Assembly: GCA_015039365.1 (NCBI GenBank)
Contig: WION01000634.1
Coordinates: 1-27,024, forward strand
Origin: Amanita rubescens
Taxonomy: Eukaryota > Basidiomycota > Agaricomycetes > Agaricales > Amanitaceae
Direction of reading: 5' to 3'
DNA: 27,024 bases
Shown here: positions 71 through 26,891 of the stretch, piece after piece
Layout of the letters: each line of letters starts with the position of its first letter
How positions within the stretch are numbered: the stretch's first letter is position 1
Translations under genes and position numbers: made by a program
The notes under the pieces: generated by a model
What the model saw: the letters and a program-made list of their open reading frames with translations, nothing else
Told to the model about the DNA's origin: nothing
Databases searched by the model: none

Positions 71-760
71 CAGGATGTGAGTATAAGCTACATCAATGAC
101 ATAACCATCTGCACTGCCTAATGTTGTGCCCAACTTTTATTCAAACCATACAGGAAGTGGGTGTGCTTGTGTTGATACACCGGGGACATATAATCTTACA
201 CATCACCAGAATGTGAACTTTATTTGGACCTTTGATGGCATACATCATCTACTTACAATCATTCCTGGATTGGTGTATATCAGGCTGTGAGTTGGAATGT
301 TCCTCAACCCAATCACAGTGGTGTACCAATGGCCTCATCATGGCATTGAACAGGTTGATGTAAGTTTTGGCTTGGTGCTCTCTCACTGAGTTACAAATGC
401 TGTATTTGAAGGCTGTATGTACTATCCTACACCAACAATTTCAAACTTAACTAATAAATACTTTATCTGATTTGCAGGCGGTATATGTCATCTGCTCTTC
501 ATGACCACTTATTGATTGTTGCATTGGTCAATACTTGGCATTGCAGTGTGTAAGTTTGTTCCATCATCAGCATCACCAACTTCTGATATGTGGTGTAGGA
601 GGTATGTGATTAGTTTGTCCTTTATTTTTGAATGACATTGGGGTGGATATCAGACTGTAAATATAATTGTGGGTTTACTTTTACCAGCAATTAGCAGATC
701 ATATTTGCATTTGCTTATAACTCACATATCTACTTTGCACCACTGGTGTGCTCTTCACAG
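71..760 (+). other. Diverged intron-like units with single-codon spacers
   Basis: Ten spacers fall between a 3' splice-like AG and a 5' splice-like GT: GAT 74, GAA 154, AAT 210, GCT 284, GTTGAT 354-359, GCT 412, GCG 478, TGT 547, GAG 599, ACT 654. The units between them are 49-104 nt long and share no clear sequence with each other or with the 63-bp array. Several contain branch-point-like CTAAT or CTGAT before the AG. Nine spacers are three bases, one is six, and none is a stop. Two donors (GTGAAC, GTATAT) are weak. The block shows that the architecture extends beyond the tandem repeat. Confidence 0.6.
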
Positions 761-3102
761 GATGTGAATTTGCAATTTTTCTGTTGTGACCAGCCCCTCA
801 CAGCTTACCTCTGCTCTTCACAGCAAGTGAGTTTCTGACTTTTCTGTTGTGATCAGCCCCTCACAGCTCACCTCTGCTCTTCACAGCAAGTGAGTTGCTG
901 ACTTTTCTGTTGTGATCAGCCCCTCACAGCTCACCTCTGCTCTTCACAGTTTGTGAGTTTCTGACTTTTCTGTTGTGATCAGCCCCTCACAGCTCACCTC
1001 TACTCTTCACAGATTGTGAGTTTCTGACTTTTCTGTTGTGATCAGCCCCTCATAGCTCACCTCTGCTCTTCACAGCGAGCGAGTTTCTGACTTTTCTGTT
1101 GTGATCAGCCCCTCACAGCTCATCTCTGCTCTTCACAGGATGTAAGTTTCTGACTTTTCTGTTGTGATCAGCCCCTCACAGCTCACCTCTGCTCTTCACA
1201 GCAAGTGAGTTTCTGAATTTTATGTTGTGATCAGCCCCTCACAGCTCACCTCTGCTCTTCATAGCGAGTGAGTTTCTGACTTTTCTGTTGTGATCAGTTC
1301 CTCACAGCTCACCTCTGCTCTTCACAGCGAGTGAGTTTCTGACTTTTTTGTTGTGATCAGCCCCACAGCTCACCTCTACTCTTCACAGGATGTGAGTTTC
1401 TGACTTTTCTGTTGTGATCAGCCCCTCACAGTTCATCTCTACTCTTCACAGGATGTGAGTTTCTCACTTTCCTGTTGTCTCTCACGGCTCACCTATGCTT
1501 TTCACAGATTGTGAGTTTCTGACTTTTCTGTTGTGATCAGCCCCTCACAACTCACCTCTGCTCTTCACAGTTTGTGAGTTTGTGACTTTCCTGTTGTGAT
1601 CAGCCCCTCACAGCTCACCTCTGCTCTTCACAGTTTGTGAGTTTCTGACTTTTCTGTTGTGATCAGCTCACAGCTCACCTTTGCTCATCACAGCTTGTGA
1701 GTTTCTGACTTTTCTGTTGTGATCAGTCCCTCACAGCTCACCTCTGCTCTTCACAGATTGTGAGTTTCTGACTTTTCTGTTGTGATCAGCCCCTCACAGC
1801 TCACCTCTACTCTTCACAGATTGTGAGTTTCTGACTTTTCTGTTGTGATCAGCCCCTCATATCTCACCTCTGCTCTTCACAGCGAGTGAGTTCCTGGCTA
1901 AGTTTTCTGTTGTGATCAGCCCCTCACAGATCACCTCTGCTCTTCACAGCAAGTGAGTTTCTGAATTTTATGTTGTGATCAGCCCCTCACAGCTCACCTC
2001 TGCTCTTCATAGCGAGTGAGTTTCTGACTTTTCCGTTGTGATCAGTTCCTCACAGCTAACCTCTGCCCTTCACAGGATGTGAGTTTCTGACTTTTATGTT
2101 GTGATCAGCCCCTCACAGCTCACCTCTGCTCTTCACAGCGAGTGAGTTTCTGACTTTTCTGTTGTGATCAGCCCCTCACAGCTCATCTCTGCTCTTCACA
2201 GGATGTGAGTTTCTCACTTTCCTGTTGTCCCTCACAGCTTACCTCTGCTCTTCACAGGATGTGAGTTTCTGACTTTTCTGTTGTGATCAGCCCTTCACAT
2301 TTCATCTCTGCTCTTCACAGGATGTGAGTTTCTGACTTTTCTGTTGTGATCAGTCCCTCATAGCTCACCTCACCTCTTCATAGTATGTGAGTTTCTGACT
2401 TTTCTGTTGTGATCAGCCCTTCACAGCTCACCTCAGCAAGTGAGTTTCTCACTTTTCTGTTGTGATCAGCTCCTCACAGTTCACCTCTGCCCTTCAACAC
2501 AGGATGTGAGTCACTGCACAAAATCAATATTTGATTGCTTTTTGATCCTTGCATCCTTCTTTTGAAATGCATCCAGAATGTATGTGCCTATCTTATGTGT
2601 TACTTCCACTCTTTCATGGGGCCATTTCATCTTCTACTCTCCAATATATGTCCAAACTGATTGCTTTGTGTGGTTTTATAGGACCATCAAAGTTTGGAGC
2701 AGTGCTTCGAGCTTATCTTGCCATTCATACCACTGCAGGTGTGGTACCTTTGTTACAATCTAGGCTAGTTGCCTTATCATCATTCAACTTCACTTAGGAT
2801 TCTTATCAACTTCAAGCTATGTGGATTGGCCTCAGTATGTTTTAACATTCTCTGCCATCATTGATGTCTCACTGATCTAGCACTTCATAGTGGCTGCAGC
2901 TGTTGCAGATCTCTGCTTATTTGCCTCTCTCTCAATATCCCATGAGACCTTTCAGGAGACTTTTGACTTCTGTCTAAATGCAGCATCATATCTGAAACTC
3001 AAGTCTGCTGTAGAGGAACAGTCTTCTACTATCATTTATGCCAATGTAGTCCTGGACATCCTGAAGGAGAATAGGGACAATTACAAGTTGTCACTGCAGT
3101 GA
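71..3102 (+). CDS. Partial gene: one-codon exon tract followed by ordinary terminal exons
   Basis: Not recognised; the 5' end lies outside the window. From 71 onward the strand reads as repeated AG / three bases / GT(R)NGT blocks, and each three-base block would be a phase-0 one-codon exon. The last one (AAT, 2577-2579) is followed by a 102-nt intron and ordinary exons 2682-2738, 2798-2834 and 2891-3102 with GT-AG introns of 59 and 56 nt. All phases agree: 57 nt, 37 nt, then 2 nt completing an ATG codon, and an open frame to TGA at 3100-3102. The terminal part is helical and hydrophobic-rich, beginning D-H-Q-S-L-E-Q and ending N-Y-K-L-S-L-Q, and could be the end of an alpha-solenoid protein; I cannot name a family. 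Codons are AT-rich and CpG-poor, unlike the central genes. Splice sites are seen in sequence; their use is inferred. The alternative is a non-coding minisatellite next to a short gene. Confidence 0.42.
761..2505 (+). repeat. 63-bp minisatellite; each unit is intron-shaped (GTGAGT...TTCACAG)
   Basis: There are 28 tandem units, 21 of them with a period of exactly 63 bp; the others are 53, 56, 56, 60, 61, 66 and 67 bp. Each unit is a 3-base spacer, then GTGAGTTTCTGACTTTTCTG and a pyrimidine-rich stretch ending in CTCTTCACAG. This is a textbook short-intron layout: donor, CTGAC branch-like motif, polypyrimidine, acceptor. The 29 spacer triplets are GAT (9), CGA (6), CAA (5), ATT (4), TTT (3), CTT (1) and TAT (1). 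They vary while the bases on both sides are nearly invariant. The unit at 1079 has a GC donor (GCGAGT). Length changes occur only inside the intron-like part. Confidence 0.93.
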
Positions 3103-6500: not shown

Positions 6501-9500
6501 TTAGAAGGAACGCAGTGATATTTGAGGCTTGGTCGAGGCCGAAGCAGCAGAGGAATTACTACCAATTGCTCGCCTGATTGATTGCTCCAATAAATCACGT
6601 TGTGATTGATCAAGCTTCGAAGCAGCTTCTTTGAATGCCGCAGGAGAAGATGTAGCATACGATAATAACTGTGTGGCCGTCTGCGACCTCACAGGGTCGG
6701 TTGCCGACGGTTGTTGATTCGACAATAGAAGCGACATCGTCGGCAGCAGGATGCAAAGTGCGCGTGTGCCTATAAACACTTAGCAAGGTGCGAACAGCAG
6801 AGCAATTAACGTACGATGATTCTCGGGAATGGAGGAGAAAAATAAGTAGAATGCCTTCCAAACTTCGCCAACCGCGGCGGTACGTGCTTCGCTGATATTC
6901 CCGTCATTTACTAGAGACGCCGTCTTTGCAATGAATTCGACCAAGCCCGGAAGCACTTGTTTTGTACATTCAACTAGGACAGGACTTCCCAAACTCGAGG
7001 CAGCAATGAGCGTTTTGCAGCAATGTGCTGCTGTTAGGGTTATCGCCTGTGCAATTGTCAATTATTCAGTTTTCAGTAGTCCAAATATACACACATCTTC
7101 GTCTTCTAGTAGCTTTTGCATAATGATGAAACAGCAGTACTCTACAACCGGCCGCCCTAACTTGATCCAGTTCGGAACAACAGTTAGAACAAGAACAGCT
7201 GCCAGCATGTTATTCTTGACTTTTTTATCGCAAACCAGACCTTGTCGTCCTCTGTACGAATATACTCGAAATCGGATGGGAAGAATAAATCGAAAGTCTT
7301 ACCTCATTTCGTCTATATTCAAGAGACACGCAGATAACAAAGCATGGACTAGCCGAGTATATAATGCCTTATCTTGCTGAGGAAATTCAAGAAGCGACTT
7401 GAGCGCAGGTAAAGTGGGTCCAACAAGATCTATTTCGGTCGATTCGTCCTTCAACAACTCTATTGTAGTCAGTGGACAGGCCAAACAGTCGGTCTTGCTT
7501 TACTTACCTGTATATAGCATTATGGCCACCCCACGTACGTCTTCTCTTTGAGAAGACTCTAAGGTCGACATAACTTTCGTCATTGCCACGAATGCTGTAT
7601 TCAACATCCGAACGCGGTCCAGTGTATCTCCCTCTGTCTTTATTAGGTATCACTACGCTTCGTTGCTGCAAACGCTACTCACGGATGATGGGCCCGCGCG
7701 ACGACGACGACGAATGCTTGATCGTGTATGAACATATTCTTAAGCAGTGGGTCGCCGCAGAAGTAGGAGCAAGATTAGGGCTGACAGCCATCAACGCATT
7801 ACACAAGGAATATCAGTGTAACGTACCTTGAACTGTGCATTGTTGCCATACTTGCTAGCATTTCTATAAGGTCTATATGCACGCTAGCCGGTTCTGTCAT
7901 CGCCAACCGATAACATTGGCTTATAAGCTCATCGAAAATAGTTGGTTCAGCCAGTACGTTCCCCGAGTATTCTGGTCGAACTAGCGACTTGAGCGCACGC
8001 AGAGCAGAGATCAAGACCGATTGATGAGATGACGGGGCATGGCTCGATTCGGATGACGATGTCGAAAGTGCCTCGAATACCAAACCAAAAAGGACATAGA
8101 AGAAGGCGGTGGGTTCCTCTCTACCACGCGCCGGTTGCACCAGGGTCCCAGACCCATTTTGTTTCAGCTCTTGTCCGTCCATTGCGGCTAATACGTATGG
8201 GTCCTCGGCTTGCATCGCGTGAGCTACCGCAGACAGTATGATAGGCCATGCGTCCACATAATACTAGGTATGTTAGCACTATGTTTGCAGTGACATTTCG
8301 AATGAATACACTTACGGGCATCAGTACCTCTTTTCCAAGGCTTGAATATGAAGCGTCAATGCCGACTGTGGACGACTCCTGGGTGAATTCCGAGTCAACA
8401 CGGATGCTTGCATAGTCGGACAAGGCCGCAATCCAGAGCGGAGCAAGCTTCGGTTTATGAGGCTTGATGACATTTTCCAAGTAAGATTGGGAGGCGCTGG
8501 CAACGTGCAACTGCGCCCATGCTGACAAAGTCGTTATTCTGAGCATAGCTGATGCGTTAGGGCTCATTTCGCCCGCTTCTCCGAGAGAGACCGTGCCAGA
8601 ATCTAAAAATGAATCTCAGCATTGATTAAAAGATCATATACAACATATACGTGACCTTTAGACTGTTCCAATGCTGTCGTTAGCAGTCTCAAGATGCGAC
8701 CCATTCTACTGATATCCTTGACAACACCACATCCGACAAATGCAGCGCAGGCATATACAGCAGAGGCTAAGATTTCTGGCGTCGAGTCTGAAGAGAAGGC
8801 GGGTGTCAAGGCAGCCGTGATGGGAGCCTGGTGCTGTTCCAACAGAAGGGCATCCTCATACGCTGGGTCAGGGGACGACGCAAAGACCTTAACAGTAGTA
8901 TAAGAAACGTCATCAAATACCAGCAACGACAGATCACCTTGATAACATCTCTCAGCACCACCAGCCCTTCTAACCTTATTTCCGTCACATATGCCGTGGA
9001 AGCGGTAAAGGCCATCTTGATCAAGTCAGGAACTCGAGAAACAAGTAAGCTTGGTATTGGTAACCCGACATTCTTCGCATATACGGGATCAATATGCTCC
9101 CTTCTTCCACTCTGCGCAACAAGCGTGCAAATCTGGTGAAGACATTGCAGGGCGAACAACTGCGTCCTCCACCTCGATGTAGTATGTCCCACTCCGTCAG
9201 CGGTGTTGGTGCCTACTCCACCCGCTCCTCCCATAGCTCTGGAATTCAAGGATTCTCCTTCGTCATCACGCATATTCTGATTGGAAGCAGCTTCTGTAAC
9301 CTGTTGGTTCGCGTTAGACCGCGCCATGATTCTTTGACAGAGATCTATCCAGGCCGACGGATTATGCACGACCGTTTGCTGCAGCCAACTAGAAATGACG
9401 TTCCTGACTCCTTGCACAGACGCATCGTCATCCAACATAGCGAACAGATCCTCGACGAGACGATCGCCTCCCAACTTGGACATTGCTAGTGCATCTTTTT

Positions 9501-12500
9501 GGACCAGCTGGTACAGCGCATTGATCGACGCAAGTTTGGGCGGACGACGAGAAGAGCTGAGATGCTGTCTGAATTGCTTCACGAGCCCAGGAATATCAAC
9601 GTGTTCAGGAGCGAACATCAAAAAATGTTGAATGCACTTGATTGCTTCGACTTGAACACCCTCGTCATTCTCCAGGGAAAACTCTCTAATCAGATTAAGA
9701 ACTAGCGTTCTAGTCCTCGGTGATTCGTGCATGTCCGGCCCTAAAACCGTCGTAACGGCGTCGATGATTTGACACGCAACAGGATATGCCGGACAATCTC
9801 CGCTGAGATTGCCGTTGAGCAGTGTTCCACCCTCCCTTTCGTGCGAATCGAGGGTATAAACTTTGAGCAGCATTCCAAGCGTACTTGATACGAACGGCGC
9901 GTAACCCAAACTGGCGGCATTGATAACGGTAGCAAGTGACTTCAGAGCCCAGAAGTGTACAACCGGGTGCGGGTCGTTGCTCAGTGACATGAGAACATTG
10001 ACTGTCGTTTTCAACAACGGACCAGCAGCAAGCCCACCGACGTAATTGTATATAGCACCAAATGCGAGCGCACAGCCTGCTCGCCCATTGGGATCTCGGT
10101 TGCTAACGACCTGGTCTACCAAATCTTTGATCTGAGTCGTGAGGAAACTGGTGTTTGAGAGGCTGGCAAGCCTTCCTATCGCCTCTGTGCTCGCAGCACG
10201 TAAGACGGGGTCACCATCGATAAGTGTAGACTGTGCATATATTGAGTACGGCCAAACGGGGAAAAAGGAGACATACCATAAGGAACGGGGACAGCAGGTT
10301 AGTTATCTGTGTATTTCCTAAAACATCGCGAGTTTGCCTTGCATGCGTTGAGCCCATGGCGTTCCTCAAAGCAAGAACTATCGCGATTGACGCGTTAACA
10401 GTAACAGCAACCTTCCGACCCAAATTCTTCTCAAGCTTCGAGGACCGAACAGCTTCAAGCAACGTATTGATCGTCCGGATAGAGACTGTCAGGTCCTGCA
10501 AGGGCAATAGTTGCGCAAATAATTCGACAGCTGCATCCACTACCGCTGTCGTAGGTGGCGGAGGTTCAACAAGTTGGAACAGTTTCCCGTCCAAACTCCT
10601 GGATTGCTGCTGACACAAGAAGAGTGGATCGTACTCGCAAGTGCCTAAGATAGGTTTCCGCAACTAATAGAATATTGTCACTAAGACGTCCCACCAGTTC
10701 ATCACCAAAAACACGTACCAGCGCATTTATAGCAACCTCCACCACATCTCGATTCAAAATGTCCCCTCCATCATCACCATTCTCCTCTCCGCCGTTCGCA
10801 GAAGCAGGTGATCCCTCAGCCCTAGCCCCATCCAGCATTCCAAACCCGACCTCGACAATCTCACCTGGCTTACCACCCGCAACCACTCCATACGCATATC
10901 CATCGGCGCTACACCAAAGATTCGAAAAGGCGCCGGTATTTGAAGTAATCGCGGCTTGCAACTGCGAACCTGCGTACCCCTCCATGCTGCCAAACAGAGA
11001 CGCAGTCGATTGCAACAACGCGTTCTGAATTGGATCCGCGATCCGATTCGCGCCAAGCGCCGAGAAACACTGGAATATGCGCTTCCTTAACAATGCCTCT
11101 CTAGCTCGCAGAGTCAAGGATCGACTGCCGGGGTATCCCAACTCTGCCCCGATGGAAGACGGTCCAGGTCCAGGTCCAGATGAAGACCCCGATGATGTAC
11201 CCCCACTTACGATCTCCAGAGGATCTTCTACACTCAAACCCTGAAAGTTATTCGCAAATTGAAGCGCGTTGCTCAACACGGACGAGATCCTACGAGCCAC
11301 ATCGAGCGTAACAAGCGCAGACGCGTTGTGACGAAGGAAACAAAGGACGGCGCCCAACGCGCTTTCTCGCACGTGCAACAAGAACGCCCATTCCGACGGA
11401 GATCGAGACGCTGAGCCACTCAAGCTCGTAGAACTCGATCCAGCGTTTCCGAGACCGCTTCCACCCGCCAAATCGCGTCCTGTCGGTTTCGGCAGCGCGT
11501 TCCTCCAAAGGACGAGCAATTGCGCGAGCTGGGGTCGGACGAACCCAGGTCCTAAACAGAGTAGCGCGCTTATCGCGGTCCACGCTACCTCTACTTCGAT
11601 CCATGCAACCTCTAAGGTGTGTTCGCCTGCGCGTTTGAGTAGTTGGACGGCGATGTCGAGGACTTTGGCCGAGATGTCGTATGAGACGTAGAGGGGGCGA
11701 GAAGGGATGACTGATACGAGTGCTGCCAGGGCATGGGCGTGGCCGAGCGCTCGGATAGGTGGTGAAGAGGTGTGGTGTGATGAAGAGGGAGGGCTGACCA
11801 GGAGAGTGAGATCACGTTGCAACAGTTCGATAATGGTCAAAAGGGTTTTTGGGAGACGGAGAGGAGTCGAAGCGCAGAAACAACGCAGAGCCCATGATGC
11901 GGATATGCGCACGCTATGACTGGGGTGGGTGAGGAGGGTGAGGAGCGGCTCCGCTAAAGCTTCCTGTTGTATCGTTTACGTGAACACTGGATCGGGGGGG
12001 CTACTCAAAATCAAACTGACCTGAATAGTACCCGGGAGATTCCCAAGCTGACCCACCAACCCAGCTGCCTCCTTCAACACTACACATAACACAGTACTTC
12101 CCGGGACGTTAGCACCGGATCCCAGCATCGGCGGCCAGCGCTTGAGATACGACACCGACAACTCCTTGAGAGCCTGTATCTGGTCCTGTTCGCTCAACAT
12201 CCTCACCCCAACCACATCGCGAAGGACGATAGACACGAGCTTACAAGCAAGCAGCCTTTCGTACCTCTTCGCAAGTACATTTATGCCCCCTGCACCGCCG
12301 CCAAAACCCGATCCAGACGTAGCACCGCTACCTCCAGCGGAAGAAACATAATGTGCCACAATCTCCGTCATAAAATGCGCGACTAGCAACGCATAGTTCG
12401 CCTCTACCCATTCCGAGCCCAGTTTTTCCAGCACGGCAACATAAAAGTCGAATAAACCAATCTTTGTCTTTCTACTTGCGTTGGTCTTGTTGAACTGTAC

Positions 12501-18487: not shown

Positions 18488-21400
18488 ATGGCCGACCGAC
18501 GTGAAGGCACTGCACGAACGATATTCAAGACGCTCCTAAAGCCCATTGATAAGTGGCGCAAATCAGCCAGCGCCTCGGCTAGCCCGTCGAGTTCAACTCG
18601 GGTTTCCATTTCCTATGCATCTGACGCTCACGATCCTGTCTCAAGAAGTGCAGGGCCGACGGGTTCAAGTAAGTATATTGGTCCCATCTTAGTTTTATCC
18701 GACTCAAACTCTTGCTAGGCGCCGATGCTACCTTGAATCAGGGTATGGATTTCTACCTCACAGATCTAGCGGACTCAGCCCACTATCCAGGTCCTACCAC
18801 CCCCTTCCAGTCAGTAAAACATCTTTCATCAAGCATTCCGGATCTGCGAGGTCCCGCTGTTCAAGGTGAGATTGCAATACGCCCGGTCGTCGCGTCTGAG
18901 AATTGACTTCGAGCACGGCCGTGAAATCCGACTCGTACTGAAGAACCAGCGTCGATTAATTCTCAAATGCCGGTCTCGGATTGGAAGGCGACTACAAAAC
19001 AGGGTCTTGGAGTAGCTTCGCGGTTCGCCCAAACGCTCCTCAAGAAGCTGCCGGACTGTGTCAATACTAATCCAGTTAAGATGGCACTCTCCATTGTTAA
19101 GGCGGTCATCGAGATAAAAGAGGTGGGTCGTCATCCTTGTATCTCGACCACAGGTTGACTATTATCTCAGGCGGTCGGAGAAAACAAGGACGAGCTTGCA
19201 CAACGTCTCGAAGACACAGCGAACAGACTCATGTCTGTGGAGGGGGCTTTAGCTATTGGTATTCCGAAGGCTGCCGAACAGAAGATGGAGAAACTCAAAC
19301 AGTACGTCGTCCTCCCTGCGTCAAATGGTATACCACAATGAACGCGTCGCCATCTAGGATCCTTCAGGAAGAAATGAAGAAGTTAGAAGACCTCACCCAT
19401 AAGTCGCTGGCCATACGGACGCTAGACCATGAAGAATATCAGAAGATGATCGGCCAAATCTTTCAACGCGTAAATGGTGCTACGACATCCTTCCAGGTCC
19501 ATACTCTTATATTCGTCTAAGCTTATGTATTTGCTCATTGTTTGTTCCCAGTTCGAAATGGCGAACAGCATCCAGGAAACGGCGAACATAATGCACGACG
19601 ACATCAAGGCAAGTATCTCGGTTTCCTGGCTTGTGACCAACACTGATTGATTGAACAGAAAGAGGCCCTAAAAAGCCTGCGTCCCTCCGAGAAGGCCGAC
19701 CACAATACTATTCTCGAAGAGCAGGGCCTGAAGCGGGAAGTGTGCACGGACGGAACGCGTGTCAAGATATTGGAAGATATTATCAAATGGGCTAATGATT
19801 GCTCATCAGACAGCCCGTGTGTCTTCTGGCTGACTGGTCAAGCTGGCTCCGGCAAAACCACAATTGCGTATACCATAGCCAAACGATTCGAGAAGGATGG
19901 TGAAGCCAACGAGCTCACCGTCTTGGGCGGCAACTTTTTCTGCTCACGACAATACCAAGAAACACAAGCCCAAACCCGTATCATTCCCACCATCGCCTAC
20001 CAGCTTGCTCGTAAATGCAAATCGTATGCAAACACTTTGCATGTTGCCGACAAATTCGACGCCGTCAATCACGACGTCTCCCGCCAGATAAAGAGTCTTC
20101 TTCTTGGACCTTGGCAACTGTCCGAAGCCACACGCCCCCTGAACTACCACCCTACCTCGTTATCATCGATGCTCTCGACGAGATCAAGGACAACGGAGGG
20201 TCAGCATTTCTGCGCGACCTGCTCACAGCAATCAACAAAGACGATATCAGAGGCTTAAAGTTTCTCGTGACGAGTCGATCGGATCCTAAAATTGTTACAC
20301 TCTGCGAGTCCTTCGCGTCCGAGGCCGTTTGTCGTCTCCAAGACGTGCCGATCGAAGAGGCAAAGTCAGACATCAAGATGTACTTGAACATCAAGCTGCC
20401 GAAGCTTGCTGGCAGTCCAGAGCTGGCCAAGGTTGGACAACAGGCGGGTGGTCTGTTCATCTACGCTGCGACGGTGGTGAGGTATTTGACCCGGTGTAAC
20501 TCGATCTCCCCTAAAGAGCAGACCGAGATGCTTAACAATCTCCTTTCCAAATCGGCTTCCGCAAGTGCTACATTCTTAATTGACATATTATACCGCCAAA
20601 TTCTGCACGACGCGTTTTCGGAGTTCGAAGGAAATATCTTGACTCGCCGATTGCATTCCTTTATACCTTCCTATGTACGGCTGAACGCACATCACCCTCT
20701 ACCGTTGCTGCGCTCATCGCAGGCAATGATAATGAAGCCGCAAAGGCCGTTTTGGATAATCTCCATTCTGTGCTATATACCCAGGACGATCGGGTTTTTT
20801 GGTACCATGCCTCGTTCCCCGACTTCATTTTTGATCCAGCCCGGTCAAACTTCTGCGTTGGTGAGAAGAACTTTCTGTTTTCGTGTAACGAACCAGCACA
20901 CCACAATCTTCTTAGTGAATCGTGCTTCGGCGTCATGAAGTCCAGTTTGCGATTCAACATGGGTGATATAACTTCATCCTTCCCGTTCGACCGTGACAAC
21001 GCCGCTGCGCTGTCTAAGCAGGTTGACCAGAACATCACTGCTGTTCTTAGGTACTCATCTCGCCACTGGACTTACCACTTGCCATTGCCCCAGCTCATCA
21101 ATACCAATAATCTTCGTTGCTGCATTTCGGAGTTCCTCCAAATTCGTGTCCTGTTCTGGATCGAGGGTATGAATTTGCTTGGATTATGCAATCAGTGTAC
21201 CCCAATGCTTCAGCATGCACGTCAGTGGGTATTGAAGGTATGGATTGCAAGGCTTGAGTTGTGCTGCAAGAACTAACAGTGTCGGTCAGTACGGGAACAG
21301 TTATTCGGAATTGGCAGGTGACCTTTGTGAAGCTGCCAATTTTGCTACCTATTTTGCTGGGAGCCCGGCTGCCGAATCGACACCGCATCTGTACATCTCG

Positions 21401-22939
21401 GCGTTGGCAACATGGTCGCGGGAAACTAGTCTCTCTCGGAAGTGGAAAAGCCAATTCACTCGCATCCCTGTCTTTACGCATACCAAAGGCAGTAGTATTG
21501 ATTTGCCATTGATGACGATATCAGCTAGGGGAATAATCTTCGCTGTTGCATTTTCAGGGGACAGCACGCGGATTGTGTCTGGGTCGTCTGACAAGTCTGT
21601 GCAGGTGTGGGATGCGTCAACAGGTGTGGAGTTGAATAAGCTGAAGGGCCACACCGGGTGGGTCAATTCGGTCGCGTTCTCGAGCGATGGGACGCGGATT
21701 GTGTCTGGCTCGGATGTCAACTCTGTGCGGGTGTGGGATGCGTCGACAGGTGTGGAGCTGAAGGAGCTGAAGGGCCACACTGGGTCAGTCAATTCGGTCG
21801 CGTTTTCGAGCGATAGGACGCGGATTGTGTCTGGCTCGGATGACAACTCTGTGCGGGTGTGGGATGCGTCGACAGGTGTGGAGTTGAAGGAGCTGAAGGG
21901 CCACACCGGGTCAGTCATTTCGGTCGCGTTTTTGACTGATGGGACACGGATTGTGTCTGGCTCGTATGACAACTCTGTGCGGGTGTGGGATGCGTTGACA
22001 GGTGTGGAGCTGAAGGAGCTGAAGGGCTACATCGGGTCGGTCAGATCAATTGCGTTTTCGAGCGATGGGATGCGGATTGTGTCTGGCTTGTATGACAACT
22101 CTTTGTGGGTGTGGGATGCGTCGACAGGTGTGGAGCTGAAGGAGCTGAAGGGCCACACCGGGTTAGTCATTTCGGTCGCGTTTTCGAGCGATGGGACGCG
22201 GATTGTGTCTGGCTCGGATGACAAGTCTGTGCGGGTGTGGGATGCGTCGACAGGTGTGGAGCTGAAGGAGCTGAAGGGCCACACCGAGGAAGTCAATTCG
22301 GTCGCACTTTCGAGCGATGGGGTATGGGTTGTGTCTGGCTCGTCTGACAATTCTGTGCGGGTGTGGGATGCGTCAATAGGTGTGGAGTTGAAGGAGCTGA
22401 AGGTCCAGACTGAGTGGGTCAATTCTGTCGCGTTTTCGAGTGATGGGACGCGGATTGTGTCTGGCTTGTATGACAACTCTGTGCGGGTGTGGGATGCGTT
22501 GACAGGTGTGGAGCTGAAGGAGTTGAAGGGCCACACCGGGTGCGTCAATTCTGTCGCGTTTTCGAGCGATGGGACGCGGATTGTGTCTGGCTCATCTGAC
22601 AACTCTGTGCGGGTGTGGGATGCGTCGACAGGTGTGGAGCTGAAGGGCCACACTGAGTGGGTCAATTCGGTTGCGTTTTCGAGCGATGGGACGCGGATTG
22701 TGAGCTCGGATGACAAGTCTGCAAGTGTAGGATGTGTTGATGAGTACTTTCCTTGGAATCTGACAAACACAAATTGGATTATTTCTTCTCAGGGGCAAAA
22801 CTACCTCATGTGGGTGCCACAAGAAGTTGGATTGCTTTCACCTTTCAATATTCTCATCATTTCTCGTTCTGGATTTGCCACTGTTGACTTTTGTCAGGCC
22901 ATGATAGGTCTTGGTTGGGTTCACTGTTATACACCATAG
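18488..22939 (+). CDS. NACHT-WD40 STAND (fungal NLR-like) receptor with two frameshifts
   Basis: Eight exons: 18488-18668, 18719-18865, 18950-19122, 19171-19301, 19358-19496, 19552-19608, 19659-21237, 21290-22939. About 1,350 residues would result if the two shifts below are ignored. Residues about 1-330 are helical with no named effector domain. The NACHT domain follows with Walker A G-Q-A-G-S-G-K-T-T (about residue 336, 19836-19862) and Walker B V-I-I-D-A-L-D-E (20159-20182). A winged-helix/helical linker is next, then about nine and a half WD repeats and a tail ending W-V-H-C-Y-T-P. Known fungal relatives (HET-E/D type) sense non-self through WD repeats. Exon 7 lacks one base in the C run at 20135-20139, between Walker A and B, and another near 20655. 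Two missing bases restore its expected phase exactly. The intron at 19609-19658 is GC-AG. It is either a recently disabled allele or a consensus error. Confidence 0.88.
21534..22734 (+). repeat. 126-bp tandem repeats encoding WD40 units
   Basis: There are nine 42-residue repeats plus a partial tenth, with nearly identical DNA. The core is V-A-F-S-S-D-G-T-R-I-V-S-G-S, then S-V-R-V-W-D-A-S-T-G-V-E-L-K-E-L-K-G-H-T. Variation is concentrated at a few positions: the residues after S-G (S, D, Y, L-Y), the N/K before S-V-R, and the last two of the repeat (G-W, G-S, G-L, E-E, E-W, G-C). Repeat 9 lacks three residues. Repeat 10 has lost the W-D core and runs into the C-terminal tail. High DNA identity implies recent unequal exchange or conversion. 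Long open frames on the opposite strand (about 21349-22770) are a by-product of the 126-bp period. Confidence 0.93.
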
Positions 22940-23302: not shown

Positions 23303-26300
23303 CTATTGACTTTTGCTACACACATTCATACTTTCCGTTCTGCTTATGCCCCAGTGCCCTTTCCATTTCTGCCTAGTACAAATGATAAATATGAGCTCAA
23401 TGCAAAGGCCATGAGCCAATAAATCACCTGGATGTCATGTGGTGTGTTTCACCCTGCCATAAATTGTCCATAAATAGTGCATGACAAAACAATGCACATC
23501 ATACCATCAATGTGAGTCACCTGCCTATGGAGCAATGTGACAAAATCTTGATGGCCAGTGTGGATAAAGTCAGGAATGATGTAAGCCTTCAGCTTCTGAA
23601 AATAGCCTTTTTGCTTGTATTGATCCAAGGCTTCAGTGACTGATACCAAAAATGGTTTATTGATCCAGAAGGATAGCTTTGCAATGATAATAATTGCTTG
23701 AAAGGTTAAGCATATATACTATAAATGAAAAGGGATGATTTACAAAGTAAGACTTGGAAATCAGTAGGCTGGTTGCAGTGGTATCAGTTGTGTAGTACTA
23801 CCCATAAAAAAGAAAAGAAAAAACCTTGACTGCAAAGTTCCTTTGCTTGTTCCCAAACATGGTAAAAAGTTCATGCTACATAGTACTATGAGATAGAGTA
23901 ATAACTCCAATCTCCCAAGACCTACACACTAACACACAAACTAATATAAAATCAATACCTTATGAACTGGCATCACTCACCTAGAAGTAAAGAAAGTCAT
24001 ATAAGTGGGATCATGATGTGGGAGTTTGTTCACTAAGATAAAATCTTACAATCTATGATGATGATGATGATGTAAAAGCAAGTAAGATATGGACAAGATA
24101 TGGCAACATGCTCACTTTCTGACATACATAGGATGTAATAATATGTCATTCATGAATTGAGCTATGCTGAGGATGCAGTTCAGAAAATGTGCAATGTCAC
24201 TCACAAGCTGTTTGTCAAAGGAAAAGATGTGAGACAGCCTTTCATAAAATGTGCAATGTCACTCACAAGCTATTGGTCATAGGAAAAGATGTGATGAGAT
24301 GCCTTTCCCAAACATGTGCAATGATGTCACTTACATCCTGTTGGTCATAGAAAAGTTGTGATGGGACTGTCTTTCACAACATATGCAATGTGGTGACTCA
24401 CTCCCTGTTGGTTGTAGGAAAGATGTGAGCAGACTACCTCTCACTTGAAAATGTGAAATGTCACTCACAAACTGTTGGTTACAGGAACAGATGTGATGAA
24501 ACTGCCTTTCACAGCATGTGCAGTGTCACTCACAAACTGTGGAAAAGATGTGATGATACTGCCTTTCACAAAATGTGAATGTGCATTGTCACTCACAAAC
24601 TGTAGGTCATAGAAAAAGATGAGACAGCCTTTCACAAAGTGTACAACATCACTCACAAACTGATGATCACAGGAAAACATGTGTGAGACTATCTTTTACA
24701 AAATGTTGAATGTCACTCACAACCTGTTATTCATAGGAAAAGACCATGAGACTTGCTATTACAAAATGTGCAATGTCACTCACTCGCTGTTGATCAAAGG
24801 AACAGTTGTGATGAGACTTCCTTTCACAAAATGTGCACCATCACTCACAACCTGTTGGGCATAGGAAAAAATGTGATGAGACTGCCTTTCACAAAATGTG
24901 CAATGTAGTGCTCACTTGCTGTTGGTCATCAGAAAAGAGGCAATGAGACTGCCTTTCACAAATGTGCAATGTGTCACACTCACTCCCTGTTGATCAAATG
25001 AATAGATCTGATGAGATTACCTTTCACAAATTTGCAATGTTACTCACAAGCTGTTGGGAAAAGGTATGGGTGTGATGAGACTTCCTATCACAAAATGTGC
25101 AATGTAACTCACAAACTGTTGGTCATATGAAAATATGTGATGATTGCCTTTCTGTCACTCACTCGCTGTTTGTCATAGAAAAGGATGTGATGAAACTACC
25201 TTTCACAAAATGTGTAATCTCACTCACTCGCTGTTGGTCATAAAAAAAGGAGTGATGGGGCTGCCTTCCACAAAATGTGCAATGTCACTCACTTCCTGTG
25301 GGTCATAGGAGAAGATGTGATGTGACTGCCTTTAACAAGATGCTCACTCGCTGTTGGCCATAGGAAGAGGTTGTCTTTTCTTTCACAAAATGTGCAATGT
25401 CACTCACTCCCTGTTGATCATAGGAAAAAATGTGATGAGACTGGCTTTTACAAAATGTGTAATGGCACTGACTTCCTGTTGATTATAGGAAAAGATATGA
25501 TGAGAATGCCTTTCACAAAATGTGGAATGTCACTGACAAGCTGTTGGTCATAGGAAAAATGTGATGAGACTGCATTTCACAAAATGTGCAATGTCACTCA
25601 CTCCCTGTTGGTCATAGGAAAAGATGTGATGAGACTTTGCCTGTGGAATGTCATGGTCACTCACTTCCTGCTCATCCATCATAGGAAAAGGTGTGATGGA
25701 ACTGAATTTCACAAAATGTGGAATGTCACTCACTCCCTGTTGGTCATAGGAAAAGATGTAATGAGACTGCCTTCCACAAAAATCTTCAATGTTGCTCACA
25801 TCCTGTCAGTCATAGGGAAAAAGTACTTAGCAAAGCATTTCAGAAATATTTGCAATGCTACTCACATACTGTTGGTCATAGGAAAAGGTTATATTTGAAC
25901 CACTAAGCTAGCAATGACATCCTGCTAACCTCCTATGTTTATAGGAAAAGTTGTGATTTCATTGCTTTTACAAATTTTGCAATATCACACACAATCTGTA
26001 AAACAAGAGGTGTCAAAATTATATTGTATCAAAGGGCCAGCATGACTCACTTCCTTTTGGAACAGAATTAGCATCATGAATGGAGAGAAAAAATAAAAAC
26101 AATGGAACTGACTCTCTTTTTTGATAGCATTTCATGTGATGAATTTACATCTCACAAAAGGATCACATACATCCTGTTTGTTTTGCAATAGCTTGTGAAG
26201 AGGCTTTGGAAAGGAGACATATTTACTGTCTGTTGTTTTGGAACAAGATGTAATGTTTATAAGCAAAAAGAAAGGAATGTCACTTACTTCCTGTTATTAA

Positions 26301-26891
26301 GTAATTTGTTCATACTCTTTTTCAGATAATAGTATGTCATTAACTTTCTATTGTTCATTGAGTTATGTCTGATAAGCTGCACAAACATTAATGTTACTTA
26401 CTTTCTTTAAGCAGGTTAGATGTGGTGTAAAGCAGTTTTGTCACTACTCACTCCCTGCCAATGAGAGACTGGAATGACAAGGCTGCTTACAATGATAGAT
26501 CAACTCACTTGCTATTGGTCATATGATGCACCATTGGATAATCTACCACAAATCAAAATGGATTCATGTTACTCACTTCCTGCAGATTATGAGTCAAGAC
26601 TGTTCATCACAAAAGAGGGCATTGCACACAAACTATTGTCATGAGACAATATGTATATCAGATCTGTGCTAGTTCGATGTCACTTACCCACTGATATCAA
26701 TAATATCAGATCTTGCCACCAAAAGAGTAGGGTGACAACTAGCCTGTGTGTCACTCAGTTGTTCATTGGACATCTGAAGTGATTAATTTGTTTTCATATG
26801 AGGGCAAAGTTGGTTTGTTACTTACCCCCTGATGAACTTTTGCAAGTATTCATCATTTCACATGAAGGCCACTTACCTCCCTGTCCACCTA
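23303..26891 (-). CDS. Partial gene: second one-codon exon tract followed by ordinary terminal exons
   Basis: Not recognised; the 5' end lies beyond 27024. Read on the - strand, blocks of AG / three bases / GT continue from about 26828 down to 24050 (AAA 24116-24118, ATT 24050-24052). A possible 12-nt exon lies at 26877-26888. Ordinary exons then follow: 23521-23718 (66 codons), 23428-23453 and 23303-23372, with introns of 67 and 55 nt, consistent phases and stop TAG at 23305-23303. The largest exon encodes I-I-I-I-A-K-L-S-F-W-I-N-K-P-F and later Y-I-I-P-D-F-I-H-T-G-H-Q-D-F-V; I cannot name a family. Exons between 24050 and 23718 are unclear. Splice use is inferred; the alternative is a non-coding repeat. 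Confidence 0.35.
24205..25802 (-). repeat. About 64-bp minisatellite; each unit is intron-shaped on the - strand
   Basis: There are 26 spacer triplets separated by units of 50-69 bp (mostly 62-68). On the - strand the unit reads GTGAGTGACATTGCACATTT, then a stretch leading to CTTTTCCTATGACCAACAG, then three bases, then GTGAGTGAC again. Spacer triplets are GGA (5), TTT (5), CGA (4), CTT (4), GAA (3), GTT (2), GAT (2) and CAA (1); all are sense. The unit body has no clear relation to the left array, so the shared layout is not shared descent of the body sequence. Donor variants include GTAAGT, GTCAGT and GTGAGC. Confidence 0.92.
25803..26891 (-). other. Diverged intron-like units with single-codon spacers (right side)
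   Basis: On the - strand the AG / triplet / GT pattern continues outside the tandem array. Spacers (+ coordinates) are TAT 25866, GAG 25930, ATT 25993, GAA 26051, AGA 26113, GAT 26171, ACA 26227, GAA 26288, AAA 26345, AAA 26402, GGA 26452, CAA 26509, GAA 26577, TTT 26630, TGG 26688 and GGG 26826. Donors are mostly GTAAGT, GTGAGT, GTATGT, GTCAGT or GTTAAT. The stretch 26700-26800 has decayed and gives no clear unit. Units here are largely unrelated in sequence, yet the spacer stays at three bases. Nothing else was recognised to 27024. Confidence 0.6.

Follow-up and report, generated by a model that had tools for sequence, protein, structure and literature searches.

Arrays of putative single-codon exons in a GTPase gene family of Amanita rubescens

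The micro-exon genes (MEGs) of schistosomes have exons that are several codons long and encode secreted products, introner elements are near-identical spliceosomal introns that are dispersed among unrelated genes, and in coding minisatellites and variable number tandem repeat (VNTR) proteins the repeat itself is the coding part. The 27,024-nt contig WION01000634.1 of Amanita rubescens (hereafter the window, meaning this whole stretch of DNA) carries two arrays, one near each end, of intron-like units that follow one another a single codon apart. The A. rubescens genes and MEGs have in common a coding region made mostly of short symmetric exons, membership in a multigene family, and variable products; unlike MEGs, the A. 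rubescens genes have one codon per exon, homogenized introns, and a GTPase as host protein. Introner elements and the arrays alike endow one genome with many near-identical spliceosomal introns; however, the A. rubescens introns are in tandem, one codon apart, and in 13 of 19 array stretches they follow a GTPase (five others have no upstream region in view). Coding minisatellites and VNTR proteins share with the arrays tandem units, changes in copy number, and a preserved frame, but in the arrays the intron is the repeat and the non-repeated 3 nt are the code.

Isolated exons of 3 nt and 1 nt are known in fungi, where the accessible portions of the reports describe them in lipS of Dactylellina (PMC5639578) and CYP621A of Fusarium (PMC12940212). 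These two genes and Drosophila homothorax (PMC7392893) share with the arrays exons of one codon or less; within the same portions of the reports these are single exons or a pair in one gene, whereas A. rubescens has dozens of consecutive ones that make up a protein segment in many genes. Among the entries listed by searches of an open-access library, we found no array of one-codon exons, subscription papers being outside this coverage. From sequence comparisons, we consider it highly probable that A. rubescens has GTPase genes with long stretches in which nearly each codon forms a 3-nt phase-0 exon by itself, these one-amino-acid exons very likely being spliced into a continuous and highly variable protein segment.

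Organization of the arrays

The left array of the window (positions 74–2579, plus strand) was read base by base and comprises 40 short exons, namely 38 of 3 nt, one of 6 nt (354–359), and one of 15 nt (654–668). This reading bears out the first-pass annotation of the sequence, which had described intron-like units one codon apart at 71–2579. Its count of forty spacers between AG and GT holds, and AG precedes all of them; the donor, however, is GT in 39 cases and GC in one (GCGAGT after 1076–1078). The six-base spacer that it noted is also present, but its 39 three-base spacers become 38 plus one that is better read as a 15-nt exon because P0122 has S-V-D-I where this exon gives T-V-N-I (here and below P denotes database proteins, L fetched genomic stretches, and C contigs). 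Introns following the 40 exons are 49–102 nt long with a median of 60 nt. When concatenated, the exons translate in a single frame (DENAVDAACETVNIIDQQFIRDQRRDDIFFLIIRQRDRDDDYQDN), which runs on through the three ordinary exons listed in table 1 to a stop at 3102; a model with two terminal exons only was dropped, as P0122 showed the extra exon at 2798–2834 and a later start of the last exon. The tandem repeat is confined to 749–2496 (period 63, 28.1 copies, 87% matches), and exons before and after it follow the same one-codon rule. The motif AG-NNN-GTRAGY occurs 30 times on the plus strand in the first 3 kb and once in the remainder of that strand. In its very short exons, AG/GT borders, and coding frame the left array resembles spliceosomal microexons, P0052 and P0122 lending indirect support to inclusion of such exons in the mRNA, and its 40 consecutive phase-0 exons of lengths divisible by three give it a large coding share in short symmetric exons, as in MEGs. 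The 5' part of the left gene lies beyond the window and is seen in the near-identical copy L021 (97.6% over 5.9 kb), in which the array stands between a GTPase P-loop and the conserved C-terminal part. The second array (minus strand, approximately 26.7 to 24.1 kb) is built from a different intron family (period 65) and obeys the same one-codon rule.

The first-pass annotation took CTGAC for a branch-like element. We reject it as the branch site, given that its A lies only 12 nt from the donor, which is probably too close. A better placed CTNAY with the A 12–40 nt before the acceptor is found in 121 of 200 diverged array introns compared with 74 of 200 after one shuffle each, and the commonest distance from this A to the acceptor is 15–19 nt.

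Beyond the window, we fetched 15 stretches with arrays and five arbitrary 10-kb controls (L024–L028), and three further array stretches were added later. The controls are free of arrays and of P-loop matches; AG-NNN-GTRAGT appears in isolation and no more than once on a strand. Across the genome, a strict pattern of two successive units has 3,540 matches, and the reversed pattern, used as a control, has none. A parse of 17 arrays on the sense strand, which was run without an exon-length prior so that exon length was not presupposed, returned 612 exons of 3 nt, 10 of 6 nt, four of 2 nt, five of 4 nt, and five of 15 nt; parsed exons of about 50–90 nt look like missed weak introns, and codon 412–414 of the window, missed by the parser, was added by eye. 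An antisense gene was rejected, antisense chains on the 63-bp family having 127 exons of 2 nt and lower scores (165–513). A genome-wide spacer census limited to one intron family gave 1,169 spacers of 3 nt, 24 of 4–30 nt (16 of 6 nt, seven of 4 nt, one of 9 nt), and 17 of 0–2 nt, all of the last on C13 and C749. Copy number differs between the close copies L020 and L023. Contig C3 holds direct repeats of 705 bp that are 99.86% identical and some 9–10 kb apart (L016:5451–6155 and L017:3816–4520); the pair, situated in the interval that separates the L016 array from the L017 array, probably marks a long terminal repeat (LTR) element inserted into a single-codon array.

Evidence that the triplets are codons

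The suggestion of the first-pass annotation that these are consecutive 3-nt phase-0 exons is supported by the absence of stops, the single frame into the terminal exons, the conservation of codons, and ordered matches to proteins. Among 797 triplets from the sampled loci, which were not chosen at random, none is a stop, although approximately 40 would be expected from position-wise composition (25.9 TAA, 10.3 TGA, 4.0 TAG). T is the first base in 0 of 332 triplets of the form xAA or xGA compared with 95 of 328 of the form xTT or xAT (P = 5e-33), a value that is too small because the triplets are partly related by duplication, although the loci are many; without L018, L021, and L022, the figures are 0 of 294 and 80 of 267. 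Genome-wide, in the one motif context to which this census was limited, there are two TAA or TGA triplets compared with 1,548 of the form (A/C/G)AA or (A/C/G)GA. Stops of the opposite strand do occur among the triplets (20/797). The two genome-wide cases are both TGA, in L030 (C557) and at C537:2935.

Codon endings are strongly biased, with 735 of 797 codons ending in A or T. Such a pattern is expected if each triplet has to avoid making rival splice sites: xTA and xCA, which would make a YAG acceptor with the following G, account for 41 of 373 A-ending codons, and xGT, which would make a second donor, for 11 of 362 T-ending codons.

Close to the GTPase, codons are more conserved than the introns around them. 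In the proximal block FEQGKKETDREIEYDG, ten pairwise comparisons among five loci gave 87–100% identity for codons and 79–85% for introns (parse breaks limit L013 and L016 to 6 and 10 codons, respectively), and the proximal block of the right gene in the window compared with L011 and L019 gave 94–96% and 80–81%, respectively. The order of the codons also recurs in proteins. We compared codon strings with proteins and with shuffles of codon order. L009, which was parsed before any homolog was known, has 45 single-codon exons whose peptide aligns to residues 329–375 of P0052. This protein has 478 aa without interruption and lies on a contig of 1,486 nt; 36 of 44 positions are identical. The score is 187, and the best shuffled order scored 62 in one set of 1,000 and 68 in another. 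Nine of 14 whole-array pairs, chosen by hand, scored above all shuffles. The proximal string of the left gene, fixed in a query before P0122 was known, outscores every one of 2,000 shuffles in comparisons with P0122, P0125, P0126, and P0129 alike, and the codon order of L021, which is the same as in the proximal part of the left gene, aligns with these four uninterrupted proteins. P0122 matches the whole predicted left protein with 100% coverage and 59% identity and has 35 residues at the place of the distal core of the window.

Proximal and distal regimes and their proposed explanation

Two opposite regimes were found along the arrays: close to the GTPase it is the introns that drift while codons are kept, and in the distal cores the reverse holds. 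In the window, 20 exact-length units of the distal core have codon columns with an entropy of 0.97–1.81 bits compared with an intron mean of 0.153 bits. The sequences around the arrays of L020 and L023 have an identity of 98.7% in the 1.6 kb before the array and of 99.6% in the 0.76 kb after it, and one identical 60-mer, common to both loci, constitutes 28 of 33 introns of L020 and 37 of 39 of L023 in exact-length units. Yet the codon strings of the two loci show no resemblance beyond that of shuffled strings (longest common subsequence 11 vs. a mean of 11.9 after shuffling). Codon bases off the array consensus in exact-length units number 53 of 99 in L020, 59 of 117 in L023, and 28 of 117 in L029, compared with 5 of 1,980, 2 of 2,340, and 4 of 2,418 intron bases, respectively; per site, the excess of codon over intron bases is 212-fold in L020, 590-fold in L023, 145-fold in L029, and 15-fold in the window. 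Among L020 unit pairs with identical introns, all three codon bases differ in 119 of 379. Distal codons look random while introns are identical. Neighboring units carry the same codon in more cases than shuffling gives in L020 (10 vs. 3.4, P = 0.001) and L023 (12 vs. 6.7, P = 0.025), and therefore whole units are duplicated; sharing was not significant in the window (7 vs. 4.3, P = 0.11). Codon order is kept between the window and L021 (24/25).

Several observations speak against a coding role of the arrays or against rapid codon change within them. L030 has a TGA and may be a decaying copy because an 8-nt exon is also present, and stops lie within longer parsed exons of L010 and L016. In the whole-array comparisons, four of the 14 chosen pairs scored below the best shuffle and one tied; three of the four failures are left-type genes against P0122, where the string is mostly the variable part, and the whole left string of the window against P0122 scores 28 compared with a shuffle maximum of 54. 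The proteins of the P0052 and P0122 type sit on short contigs labeled only jgi, and we infer a cDNA origin because their open reading frames run through the positions of A. rubescens introns; the distal codons of the window are without a direct transcript match. In L017 the 4.9 kb that precede the array contain no P-loop; an inserted element between L017 and L016 is the probable reason. A faster change of codons is not clear among the window, L021, and L022, copies that differ by about 1% (changes at 3 of 228 codon sites vs. 42 of 5,044 others). Finally, very uniform arrays contain spacers whose length is not a multiple of three, in 8 of 56 cases in L023 and 5 of 49 in L029 (all of 2 or 4 nt); when L023 is read through as a single string, no frame is free of stops, and in L031 (C749:1701–4700) 17 of 41 spacers measure 0, 1, 2, or 4 nt, the other 24 having the regular 3 nt. 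Introns keep their length despite these odd spacers (54/55 in L023, 46/47 in L029, 29/40 in L031), the 3-nt spacers are free of stops even there (0/48, 0/44, and 0/24, respectively), and L020, with equally uniform introns, has 34 of 34 spacers of 3 nt. Arrays with odd spacers may be broken or their consensus may be wrong; otherwise, they could reflect decay or a mutable spacer. L031 in particular may be decaying, misassembled, or a glimpse of how spacers change.

Under the single-codon exon model, ordinary splicing is predicted to free each codon from its introns and to join it to its neighbors. Short-intron splicing by intron definition would permit 3-nt exons, and neighboring introns would be removed one after another, since simultaneous binding of two splice sites at a distance of 3 nt is hardly feasible. 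Gain, loss, or skipping of a 3-nt phase-0 unit would leave the frame intact. The proximal codons would then form a conserved block and the distal codons a hypervariable segment, in which recombination between near-identical introns could add, remove, and shuffle one-codon units while selection would favor new codon strings in an intracellular GTPase of the recognition type. We lean toward this codon-by-codon diversification, in which a recognition segment would be written one codon per exon with homogenized introns as recombination handles and about ten thousand one-codon exons, the last figure being extrapolated from the genome-wide 3,540 strict pairs by the ratio found in the sampled, nonrandom loci (797 exons to 273 such pairs). 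In such a system, the genome could insert, delete, swap, or skip single amino acids and keep both frame and splicing. If true, the arrays would be a limit case for splicing, in which exons too short to be recognized by exon definition would follow one another by the dozen and be joined in order, with introns as the homogenized repeat and single codons as the modules; they would represent a large unrecognized source of variable proteins in mushroom genomes, possibly for recognition, and codon change beside identical flanking introns would become a directly testable question.

The alternative that the first-pass annotation raised, a noncoding minisatellite grown from one intron with neutral spacers, is highly improbable. 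The clean tandem core of period 63, the different copy numbers of L020 and L023, and the spacers of irregular length would suit it, but it explains neither the lack of stops, which is at odds with neutrality and extends to the 3-nt spacers of L023, L029, and L031, nor the frame, nor codons that are kept where introns diverge and are ordered as in uninterrupted proteins, nor the exons outside the tandem core that obey the same rule. It is rather unlikely that the distal core is usually skipped, with the whole array or variable subsets omitted by alternative splicing to give many in-frame isoforms per gene. Phase-0 units of this length could be skipped in frame, and the A. rubescens model P0088, which is mere annotation, joins the GTPase to the C-terminal exons without the array segment; against this, P0122 has its 35 residues at the place of the distal core, P0052 holds most of the L009 array, and stop avoidance in the cores means translation at least some of the time.

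As for the contrast between identical introns and differing codons, two possible sources are unit shuffling with selection for new strings and a targeted or error-prone process that acts on the spacer. The latter would change codons, for example at the junction during array expansion, and spare introns; we regard it as tentative and somewhat unlikely. It would account for codon bases far off consensus beside nearly invariant introns in L020, L023, and L029, for the L020 unit pairs that differ at all three codon bases, and for length changes that hit spacers (8/56 in L023, 5/49 in L029) rather than introns (1/55 and 1/47), but codon excess is not clear among the window, L021, and L022, and codon sharing by adjacent units speaks for duplication of whole units. 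That part of the pattern in the most uniform arrays is an assembly artifact, with mixed reads of units making introns look over-uniform and spacers hybrid (GATT, GAAT, CTGA), is unlikely: several 4-nt spacers of L023 do resemble two common codons overlaid and the odd spacers cluster in three very uniform arrays, yet mixing would create stops too, and none is found among the 3-nt spacers of those arrays, L020 combines regular spacers with equal uniformity, and the window core, the proximal blocks, and the protein matches lie beyond its reach. Very unlikely, in our view, is an introner-like burst in which identical introns entered an older continuous exon between its codons. This would leave identical introns with diverse codons, as seen; however, the A or T ending of 735 of 797 codons would not be required of an ordinary old exon (the comparison covers array codons only), and the codon strings of L020 and L023 are no more alike than shuffled despite near-identical flanks. 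We know of no mechanism for insertion at every codon boundary.

Host GTPases and neighboring genes

The upstream P-loop in the 13 stretches is on the same strand as the array and reads GRANAGKTT or GNANAGKTT (GRANSGKTT in L015). The six without it are the two window arrays, which are at the window ends, L018, which starts inside its array, L029 and L030, which are cut close and have GTPase pieces listed at their positions, and L017. The Pfam model MMR_HSR1 matches the L011 type above the cut-off (E = 1.4e-5) and the L021 type just below it (20.1 vs. 21.9 bits). The GxANAGKTT P-loop together with the G-domain fold places these proteins among the P-loop GTPases, and at least 391 pieces in the A. 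rubescens genome match the family. In a fold search, the predicted G domain of P0122 resembles chains of immunity-related GTPases (IRG; structures 4lv8 and 1tq4), a family with helical domains around the G domain, with EngB and septins close behind; after residue 308, that is, in the C-terminal third, the model is mostly below 50 in predicted local distance difference test (pLDDT) score. Recognition may be the role of these proteins, since a putative hypervariable segment adjoins a conserved GTPase and the multigene family is large.

Five annotated proteins, one of A. rubescens (P0121), two of A. muscaria (P0132 and P0133), and two of Russula decolorans (P0127 and P0136), all end no more than eight residues from the same FPHML point (FPYML in P0127). 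Ends near this segment in A. muscaria and Russula suggest that arrays follow there too, invisible to gene finders, and single-codon arrays would explain the shared end of the five proteins if gene finders are blind beyond that point. The distant jgi members P0158 and P0188 (39% and 45% identity) likewise end, downstream of the FPH segment, in tails that are charged or biased, which is what arrays of one codon per exon would yield; the architecture may extend beyond Amanita.

Table 1. Predicted exons of the two array genes in the window
Feature	Position	Strand	Remark
Left gene, proximal short exons	74–76, 154–156, 210–212, 284–286, 354–359 (6 nt)	+	Base reading
Left gene, proximal short exons, continued	412–414, 478–480, 547–549, 599–601, 654–668 (15 nt, ACTGTAAATATAATT)	+	
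Left gene, proximal peptide	74–668	+	D-E-N-A-VD-A-A-C-E-TVNII; outside the tandem repeat
Left gene, distal core	761–2505	+	29 single-codon exons, related introns mostly 60 nt; peptide DQQFIRDQRRDDIFFLIIRQRDRDDDYQD
Final single-codon exon (AAT, N)	2577–2579	+	
Ordinary 57-nt exon DHQSLEQCFELILPFIPLQ	2682–2738	+	Resembles P0122 RYLQQCLETLLAFMPQQ
Ordinary 37-nt exon DSYQLQAMWIGL	2798–2834	+	Ends one base into the next codon; revealed by P0122 TSYRPIWIGL
Terminal exon, ending TGA	2891–3102	+	P0122 counterpart MTEAIADFCLFTSLSSTHENFQKAFDFC
Right gene, exon at contig end	26938–27012	−	Segment ...TTTCCACATTTCTGG (FPHFW in L011) preceding the arrays of its subfamily
Right gene, 30-nt exon MSNEQLSDTQ	26744–26773	−	P0001 has TNEQLSETK here
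Right gene, conserved proximal single-codon exons	25866–26690	−	W-F-E-Q-G-K-K-E-T-D-R-E-I-E-Y, TGG 26690–26688 to TAT 25868–25866
Right gene, distal variable single-codon exons (DGEGLEGRERRFLGQVRVFFFFGDLLK)	24116–25802	−	Repeat period about 65
Right gene, ordinary C-terminal exon IIIIAKLSFWINKPFLVSVTEALDQYKQKGYFQKLK...HIDG	23505–23696	−	Borders by eye; resembles P0052 IIIIAKLSFWIKNP

By eye comparison with L011, the frame of the right-gene exon at the contig end seems disturbed; possible reasons are that the right gene is a pseudogene or that the contig has an error at its end. Between the two arrays, positions 19647–22939 (plus strand) hold a gene of the NACHT/NPHP3_N type with about ten WD40 repeats (126-bp DNA period) that resembles fungal NLRs, and positions 8806–10302 (minus strand) hold a HEAT-repeat gene related to Laa1/Sip1/HEATR5.

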